A DNA stretch of 64,000 bases. Source: Parapedobacter lycopersici (lineage in GTDB: Bacteria > Bacteroidota > Bacteroidia > Sphingobacteriales > Sphingobacteriaceae). The notes beneath the pieces were generated by a model. That model saw only the letters and a list, made by a program, of their open reading frames with translations. It was not told where the DNA came from and ran no database searches. Positions within the stretch are counted from its first letter, which is position 1. The number at the start of each line of letters is the position of its first letter. Position numbers and translations under genes: made by a program. Below, piece after piece: positions 61,282-62,941 of this stretch. The stretch spans positions 124,001 to 188,000 of the forward strand of contig NZ_JAMSLW010000006.1 in assembly GCF_024643285.1 (NCBI RefSeq). The letters run 5' to 3'.

Positions 61282-61860
61282 TCAGTCATCCAACCCTTTC
61301 CCGGCTAAGATTTTCGGCAGGCACTTTTCCACCCTTGACATCCGGGTTTTAGCCTGTTTGGCTTGCGAAAAGTGAAAAATATAAGCGCGTTGCCTACCCG
61401 GGGTCAGGTGCTCAAAGGCTTTTTTCAATGCGGGTATTTCATCCAGTTTTTCCTGAAATTCTTCCGGAATGATGAAATCCGATGTTTTCTTCAACACCAC
61501 TTTCAATCCGGCTTTTTCCACTTCAATCGCTTCATGAATATAAGCCTTCAGCGTGCGTTCCTGCGCAATGATCTCGGCTACACTGGTGAACCGGATCTGG
61601 CGGGCTGCTTGGACATTGGCCGATTGCCGGATGAGTATACCCTGCTCGTCGGTTAACAGGGCACCCTTAAAAAAGAGTAACGCACAATATGCCTTAAATC
61701 CATGAATAAGCACAATGTTGCGGTTTTGGAGGGTGTAGCAAGGCTGCCCCCATTTCAATTCTTCGGACAGGCCGCAATCCAGGACGATCGTTCGCAGCTT
61801 CTGGAAGGCTTCCTGCCATACCGTGTCTTCGTCGAAAAACCAGTTAACCTTTGGGTTCAT
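61282..61860 (-). CDS. YdeI/OmpD-associated (DUF1801) family protein
   Basis: 192 residues. A DUF1801-type N-terminal domain (residues 10-115; WQEAFQKLRTIVLDCGLSEE, LKWGQPCYTLQNRNIVLIHG, ALLFFKGALL) and a C-terminal OmpD-associated-like tail (PEEFQEKLDEIPALKKAFE, LTPGRQRAYIFHFSQAKQ, RMSRVEKCLPKI) match the YdeI layout well. The role of the family is unclear; it has been linked to peptide resistance in Salmonella. It is convergent with the MarR operon. Confidence 0.9.
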   Translation of the reverse strand: MNPKVNWFFDEDTVWQEAFQKLRTIVLDCGLSEELKWGQPCYTLQNRNIVLIHGFKAYCALLFFKGALLTDEQGILIRQSANVQAARQIRFTSVAEIIAQERTLKAYIHEAIEVEKAGLKVVLKKTSDFIIPEEFQEKLDEIPALKKAFEHLTPGRQRAYIFHFSQAKQAKTRMSRVEKCLPKILAGKGLDD

Positions 61861-61918: not shown

Positions 61919-62136
61919 CTTCGGGCTGGCTTCGGGATTTATCCGGCCCTGCTTCGGGACCGCCTCGGCCATTCTTCGGGGATTGGTTCGAAGGTCTTCG
62001 GAACGCAATGCATTGCACACCGAGCAGCCCCGAAGCGCGGTCGAAGCGGAGTCGAACCCGACTCGAACAAGGGTCGAACAAGTCCCGAAGCGGACTCGAA
62101 CAACACTCGAACAACACTCGAAGAACGCTCGAACAC
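61919..62136. repeat. Inverted array of 11-bp-phased TTCGG and CGAA units
   Basis: On the left, TTCGG-type units (one degenerate, one TTCGA) lie at 61920, 61931, 61942, 61953, 61964, 61975, 61987 and 61997. On the right, CGAA-type units lie at 62031, 62042, 62053, 62064, 62075, 62086, 62097, 62108, 62119 and 62130, exactly 11 bp apart. The right-hand units are the reverse-complement family of the left ones (TTCGRG versus CYCGAA). The centre holds a 12-bp palindrome, GCAATGCATTGC, at 62004-62015. The period equals about one DNA turn. The array occupies the gap 61861-62200 between two convergent-in and downstream genes and encodes no credible protein. Long open frames across it are shadows of the 33-bp translation period. 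A role in DNA bending, protein binding or chromosome organisation is inference. Confidence 0.88.
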
Positions 62137-62200
62137 AGGAAGGGCAGCAGGCCATACATGCCCACTGCCCGGAATCCAAACAAACACAACTAACACTACG

Positions 62201-62902
62201 TTAATGTTCATGCCCGTGCTCGGCATGAATCTCGAATTTCAGTTCCAGCACATTGTTGCCGGCGAATGTTTCAGCGTAATCGCCGCGGTTCCAGTCGGTC
62301 CGTTCGATCGTTCCCTTTACTCCCGGATCCAGCTTGCGCAGCACATACGTCACCGCTTTGGTGCCGCCTTTATTGTCGTGGCCAATGACGAAGTAACTCA
62401 GGATGCCCGTTGTTTCATATTTCCCGTCCACGGCCGTGCCGTTTCCATAGGTCTGTTCACGGGGTTGGAAAATAGCGCCGCTCTCATCATCCGAATCAGG
62501 ATTCAATGTGAAGTCTCCGCCAATGAGGAAGGCTTTATACTGGTCGGCCGTTGCCTTATCGGTTAGAAAATCCGGCTGGACTTCCCGGCCGTCGTAATCC
62601 CAAGCTTTTAGCCCGATCTTGTAAACGGCGTCTGCTTCGAGGTGCAGGTGGCCATTGGAAGTGGCATTTCCCTGTTCGTCGAATGTAATGCGGATGGATT
62701 CACCCTCGGTACCTCCATCCAGGCCATGGAAATGATCGCCATGCGCTTCAACCGCTTCGCCACTCACCTCAGTGAACGTTAATTCCGCCCGTTGGATACC
62801 TTCGGGAATGGGGCTGCCATCGTCATCCTTGTTGCAGGATGCCAACGCAAAAAGCGTGATTGTAAATAAGGAAAGTACCGCAAGTCTGTTTCGTTTTTTC
62901 AT
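62201..62902 (-). CDS. His-rich secreted lipoprotein
   Basis: 233 residues from the ATG at 62902. The lipobox is LASC (Cys23 or so). The mature protein has scattered histidine clusters (EAHGDHFHG near 55, NGHLHLEA near 80, and HAEHGHEH at the C-terminus), suggesting metal (zinc or similar) binding. YFVIGHDNKGGTKAVTYVLR and the surrounding strands imply a beta fold. No family is recognised. A nested palindrome overlaps its promoter region, which would fit control by a metal-responsive repressor. Confidence 0.8.
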   Translation of the reverse strand: MKKRNRLAVLSLFTITLFALASCNKDDDGSPIPEGIQRAELTFTEVSGEAVEAHGDHFHGLDGGTEGESIRITFDEQGNATSNGHLHLEADAVYKIGLKAWDYDGREVQPDFLTDKATADQYKAFLIGGDFTLNPDSDDESGAIFQPREQTYGNGTAVDGKYETTGILSYFVIGHDNKGGTKAVTYVLRKLDPGVKGTIERTDWNRGDYAETFAGNNVLELKFEIHAEHGHEH

Positions 62903-62941
62903 TGTCATTTACATTTAATTTATAGTTTATGGATTTAATAT

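Follow-up and report, generated by a model that had tools for sequence, protein, structure and literature searches.

What kind of element is formed by some 18 copies of one four-letter word, CGAA, arranged in two mirror-image arms in non-coding DNA? The array that raises this question spans positions 61920 to 62133 of the window, by which we mean the whole stretch of 64,000 nucleotides of the Parapedobacter lycopersici genome that was analysed. It was pointed out in an earlier note, which placed its start at 61919, one base too early, and gave the other coordinates correctly. The array, its parts and its neighbours are as follows:

61282 to 61860, minus strand: gene of a 192-aa DUF1801 + OmdA (YdeI-like) protein, whose start faces the left arm
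61920 to 62000, minus strand: left (weaker) arm, eight TTCGR units (YCGAA on the minus strand), read from the sequence
62005 to 62016, no strand: central palindrome GCAATGCATTGC, 12 bp, of the form GCAA-NNNN-TTGC in sister elements
62020 to 62024, plus strand: degenerate inner unit CCGAG, 10 bp ahead of the first perfect right-hand unit
62030 to 62133, plus strand: right (strong) arm, ten YCGAA units in exact 11-bp steps
62142 to 62170, minus strand: hairpin-forming GGGCAG...CTGCCC in the interval that separates the array from the stop of the upstream gene, putatively terminator-like, read from the sequence
62201 to 62908, minus strand: gene of a lipoprotein-like 235-aa protein, whose stop lies 65 bp from the right arm

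The right arm was described in the earlier note as perfectly regular, and this is indeed the case, with CGAA starting at 62031, 62042, 62053, 62064, 62075, 62086, 62097, 62108, 62119, and 62130. The left arm likewise consists of the eight inverted units with two slips that had been reported: TTCG starts at 61920, 61931, 61942, 61953, 61964, 61975, 61987, and 61997, with one mismatch each at 61942 (TCCG) and 61964 (CTCG). The steps are 11, 11, 11, 11, 11, 12, and 10 bp, and since the slips of +1 and -1 cancel, the outer left units are back in register. A pattern of three such units matched nine times in the window, against 0.01 expected from dinucleotide shuffles, of which none exceeded one match. 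The array sits between two minus-strand genes; we take the open reading frames across it to be spurious, as they are found in several frames of either strand and a repeat step of 11 bp is not divisible by three, so that the stretch is indeed non-coding, as had been supposed. A CRISPR array, which has repeats of approximately 23–50 bp with unique spacers of similar length between them, had been excluded as well, and rightly so, as the period here is 11 bp and the fixed core 4 bp. The product of the 62201–62908 gene gave no Pfam match and is conserved and widespread in the Sphingobacteriaceae; it carries an EAHGDHFHG motif.

The same genome contains many more of these arrays. The three-unit pattern had 194 matches in the whole genome and its reversed control only one, and a strong-arm model, built from sequence only, resolved 22 full elements and approximately four remnants in the 3.6-Mb genome, i.e., about one per 165 kb, counts that rest on these pattern and model searches. 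They occur on contigs C1, C12, C16, C17, C18, and C19 in both orientations, and all those examined are intergenic. The copies have a common unit order and 75–87% identity, which makes it probable that one gave rise to another. The ends of the elements are ragged, and the arm lengths differ by whole units. The GCAA..TTGC of the centre is retained in 11 of 13 aligned elements with four variable inner bases, and the 10-bp step from the degenerate inner unit is also present in most sister elements. The palindromic centre emphasized in the earlier note is typical of the elements of this genome; most other genomes have TTCGR-N7-YCGAA instead. Two directional roles were considered and rejected. For a polar replication signal (KOPS- or Chi-like) the orientation is mixed within contigs and agrees with the sign of the GC skew in 9 cases and disagrees in 13; for a signal of transcription orientation the tandem gene pairs divide 9 to 7 between the two orientations.

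The most striking property of the family is the contrast between its cores and its spacers. In the 13 aligned elements CGAA is unchanged in all 126 units, although these elements were first picked with the exact three-unit pattern, which favours intact cores, whereas the spacer columns diverge by 0.45. The base after CGAA is always G or C and that before it T or C, and 4 of the 11 unit positions are fixed. The core is also present at 82 of 84 phased positions in eight elements that the model recovered afterwards, each run being taken to end at its last match. Two sister species provide an orthologous pair, which differs at 0 of 48 core positions and 14 of 89 spacer positions and has a sole indel of exactly 11 bp; changes in strong-arm length are mostly single 11-bp units. 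The weaker left arm is less strict, with a core divergence of 0.15 vs. 0.54 for the spacers among homologous left arms of the 13 elements. Since copies with spacers that differ by 45% still have perfect cores, selection appears to act on the cores after dispersal.

The phase is also held across the centre. We measured how far apart the innermost runs of the two arms lie, and in all 50 elements tested, from 15 genomes, this distance is 0, 1, or 2 modulo 11, although elements within one genome are kin and the 50 are thus not independent. The distances found are 12, 13, 24, 33, 35, 44, 55, 66, 77, 78, and 79 bp, 13 being the commonest. Fourteen other genomes contribute 29 of these elements, with unrelated centre sequences (e.g., TTCGG-AAAAATG-CCGAA, TTCGA-CTCGTTC-CCGAA, and TTCGA-CTCCGGG-TCGAA). 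Because of its two slips the window copy falls outside the automated run rule; its distance determined by hand is 34 bp (61997 to 62031), i.e., 1 modulo 11. The geometry put forward earlier, with all units on one face of the helix, is thus supported. Such a rule would be expected of a protein complex on one face and would be needless for the loop of a hairpin.

Similar stretches do occur in other Sphingobacteriaceae, as stated in the earlier note. Runs of five units occur in 47 of the 301 genomes of our sample of the order, distributed over 5 of 17 genera, while the control gave zero everywhere; one genome of another family of the same class (G283) has very similar units. From this patchy presence we conclude that the family can do without the element. 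The spacer consensus is species-specific (e.g., G646, G664, and G525) and the positions of the arrays differ between species: the syntenic site behind the gene of the 235-aa protein is without an array in three other Parapedobacter. A unique array with a phase that varies randomly between strains had been named in advance as telling against the proposal; in the part of this that could be compared, i.e., between elements and species, the array is neither unique nor random in phase, given its approximately 22 full elements in this genome. Three genomes (G003, G007, and G057) possess an AT-richer element (e.g., TTCGGAGTTTATTCGGATTTATCCGAATAAATTCCGAA) that keeps the 11-bp phase around a centre of 12, 13, or 33 bp. 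Several contigs of G576 terminate within or next to an array, which suggests that near-identical copies break short-read assembly and that array counts in draft genomes are lower bounds. The plasmid search gave no match to the array. A plasmid or phage origin was rejected, as, in addition, the only phage match covers 35 bases and is chance-like, and the inspected IMG/VR pattern matches are unrelated tandem repeats.

The neighbours of the elements in P. lycopersici, identified by eye from the sequence, are diverse and include rimP-nusA, rpsA, ileS, leuS, rplC, dnaK, a pyrR-pyrB-like pair, and SusC/D operons. Seventeen elements with a gene downstream were examined, and for 9 of them there is a Bacteroidetes -7 box (TANNTTTG); in all nine it separates the array from the gene, and no box precedes the array or falls inside it. 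From this constant order we read the array as a DNA element distal to the promoter and not as a leader RNA, although the pattern could also arise if insertions into the 5' UTR were selected against. Three elements sit between convergent genes, and control of a downstream promoter can, therefore, not be the sole role. An array occurs upstream of the rplC ribosomal operon in two genera, i.e., in P. lycopersici (C18:85586) and in G565, which may be a conserved position or a coincidence.

Two gene contexts recur. Of the 16 genomes searched, 13 have an array approximately 100–600 bp upstream of a DUF6266 gene (14 cases), for which we estimate a random expectation of about 0.1. At several loci the order is HTH_17, array, DUF6266, in some cases with DUF5675 behind, and this module occurs in at least three genera (L116, L117, L107, L315, L318, L350, L404, and L405). 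The single DUF6266 gene of P. lycopersici is without an array, despite the spread to 22 places in its genome. In the second context the array lies 5' of TlpA-SusC operons. Seven such loci in G602 (L390, L392, L394, L396, L398, L400, and L402) have highly similar non-coding DNA upstream, from several hundred bases to ca. 1 kb and including the array, which looks like recent duplication or gene conversion; this DNA also holds a TACGCAAAGGGGATTGTTATGCCC stretch and a GTCCCGCGCCCGCGGGAC hairpin. In G008, TGGCAG...ATTGGCAG / CTGCCAATTACTGCC repeats adjoin the right side of the array at both a DUF6266 locus (L315) and a non-DUF6266 locus (L316), as if array and repeats move together.

We consider it somewhat more probable than not (ca. 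0.55) that the array is a helically phased platform of duplex DNA for cooperative protein binding. The CGAA cores would mark a single face of the helix, one core to each turn, and the two arms of cores would point away from a short centre in near-constant rotational register. A DNA-binding protein would cover each unit and touch its neighbours along the helix, so that a cooperative filament or wrap would take in the centre and both arms. The complex, lying between transcription units, would bend or wrap approximately 200 bp and might act as a silencer, an insulator, or a chromosome-organizing site. Beyond the observed phase, core invariance, intergenic promoter-distal position, multiplicity, phylogenetic spread, and links with DUF6266 and TlpA-SusC, we infer that the arrays are bound by protein, that this binding is cooperative, and that it serves a function. 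The small HTH_17 proteins encoded beside the arrays at DUF6266 loci, which have the same fold class as BldC and the excisionases, are a candidate binder, but this is only a lead. HTH_17 was rejected as a proven binder since gene number does not track array number: G002 has seven HTH_17 genes and no array, whereas P. lycopersici has one such gene and the most arrays in its genus. This lack of correspondence, the patchiness of the arrays, and the DUF6266 gene without an array in P. lycopersici itself all weigh against a platform.

On our analysis the main rival is a gyrase-wrapping site. The phased arms would then be bending signals that wrap the DNA on the C-terminal domains of GyrA, and each element, located between transcription units, would be a strong site for gyrase, comparable to BIME-2 of Escherichia coli. 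It ranks as such because the gyrase motif of E. coli likewise has two arms and a period (10.75 bp); this motif extends over 130 bp, with a 36-bp centre and two flanks in which the GC content follows that period, and the intergenic BIME-2 repeats are preferred gyrase sites (PMC6379681). The elements described here, ca. 200 bp in length, two-armed, phased, intergenic, and situated between transcription units, resemble this motif and the strong gyrase site of Mu in their periodic flanks in helical phase around a centre. However, cores lie close to that centre, which is N7 in most genomes and longer in P. lycopersici: at the commonest one (TTCGR-N7-YCGAA) they are within 7 bp of each other, which leaves no room there for a non-periodic centre of 36 bp. 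Furthermore, the gyrase motif is a degenerate modulation of GC content and CGAA is letter-perfect, and most genomes of the family are without the array even though gyrase is, to our knowledge, universal in bacteria. We regard this explanation as unlikely.

The dispersal of the copies raises the question whether the array is a selfish repeat, MITE- or REP-like, that spreads by transposition or recombination and whose cores are needed by the transposase or recombinase. The common unit order of the copies within the genome, with their identity of 75–87%, would fit this, as would the variation in position between species with the empty syntenic site in Parapedobacter, the species-specific spacers, and the near-identical copies embedded in approximately 1 kb of common upstream DNA at the seven loci of G602. 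Against a mobile element of this kind stand arm lengths that vary by whole units, cores that remain perfect where the spacers differ by 45%, and a DUF6266 link that recurs across genera; sharp ends and target duplications were not seen, nor was a linked transposase beside the elements of P. lycopersici. Selfish spread accounts for the placement of the copies and not for their perfect cores, and as an explanation of the array itself we consider it decidedly improbable.

The stem-forming structure that had been suggested as one use of the pattern did not hold up. If the arms paired, a transcript or extruded DNA would be the active form, as a leader, terminator, or processing signal. The arms are inverted, a turn of A-form RNA likewise takes 11 nt, and the window copy is predicted to fold better as RNA than dinucleotide shuffles do (z = -3.2), but the repeated core explains this low energy. 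When the spacers were permuted within the arms of 20 elements, the energy stayed the same (z from -1.5 to 2.5), and arms of 2 units facing arms of 10–12 are common. A selected hairpin is unlikely because the spacers of the two arms are not complementary beyond permutation and the arms are unequal. The distance between the arms also follows the helical repeat, though the length of a loop could be anything, and the arrays lie upstream of recognizable promoters and in both orientations relative to the genes. The Rfam search gave no match for the array, and with complementary arms not maintained, the earlier remark that this is not a standard terminator stands. A hairpin or RNA function is thus largely refuted, and we judge it very improbable. 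A neutral minisatellite produced by replication slippage would explain the unit-sized indels but is hardly credible, because slippage yields homogeneous units, whereas of the 11 positions in these arrays only 4 are fixed and the others diverge to 45%, the inverted arms stand in a fixed register, related arrays occur across genera, and true 11-bp tandem repeats (G137 and G420) look different.

For a phased binding platform, one of the closest parallels is found in plasmid partition. In parS of pSM19035 (bound by omega) and parC of R1, pSK41, and pB171 (bound by ParR), one dimer of a ribbon-helix-helix (RHH) protein occupies each unit and a helical nucleoprotein superstructure is formed on short phased units, in runs of 7–10 in intergenic or promoter regions (PMC5016525). 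Runs of phased short direct repeats are found here too, but those systems comprise one or a few plasmid loci beside par genes and here there are ca. 22 chromosomal copies; a par operon (RHH and motor protein) was not seen beside the elements of P. lycopersici, with flanking genes judged by eye. The arrays also differ from plasmid iterons in their fixed CGAA core with a variable 7-bp remainder and in their two opposite arms. The winged-helix (wHTH) filaments of BldC, Xis, and RdfS cover direct repeats of variable number cooperatively and head to tail with strong distortion of the DNA, and in their extended form have one protomer per turn (PMC5859096; PMC11963761). The BldC repeat is, however, AT-rich and 9 bp long (AATTNNNNC), in contrast to 11 bp with CGAA here. 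With BIME-2 and REP sequences the arrays share their dispersal between transcription units, but REPs are hairpin palindromes, whereas our arrays are phased units with arm complementarity only in the core; membership of the BIME/REP class was rejected, as the units are not hairpin palindromes and the arms show no excess pairing; a RAYT transposase, such as accompanies REPs, was not noticed among the genes flanking the elements of P. lycopersici. The LexA motif of the Sphingobacteriaceae is CTAA-N5-TTAG (PMC8565304), and an SOS box was rejected since this motif is absent from the array units.

The arrays thus share some, but not all, of the features that define iteron arrays, BIMEs, or gyrase sites, and no description of such repeats in Sphingobacteriaceae was found in the literature searched. 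It is possible, although on present evidence rather doubtful, that they represent an undescribed class of chromosomal iteron-type elements of the Bacteroidota, with a dedicated cooperative binder that forms nucleoprotein bodies of ca. 200 bp between transcription units, an ancestral link with HTH_17-DUF6266 and TlpA-SusC, and a genome-wide amplification in some species to organize or insulate the chromosome. DNA elements that organize or insulate the chromosome are known in few lineages beyond the model proteobacteria and firmicutes. A letter-perfect core that occurs once per turn and is kept across genera makes the proposal unusually easy to test, and the DUF6266 and TlpA-SusC links provide access to two gene groups of the Bacteroidota that are abundant and poorly understood.
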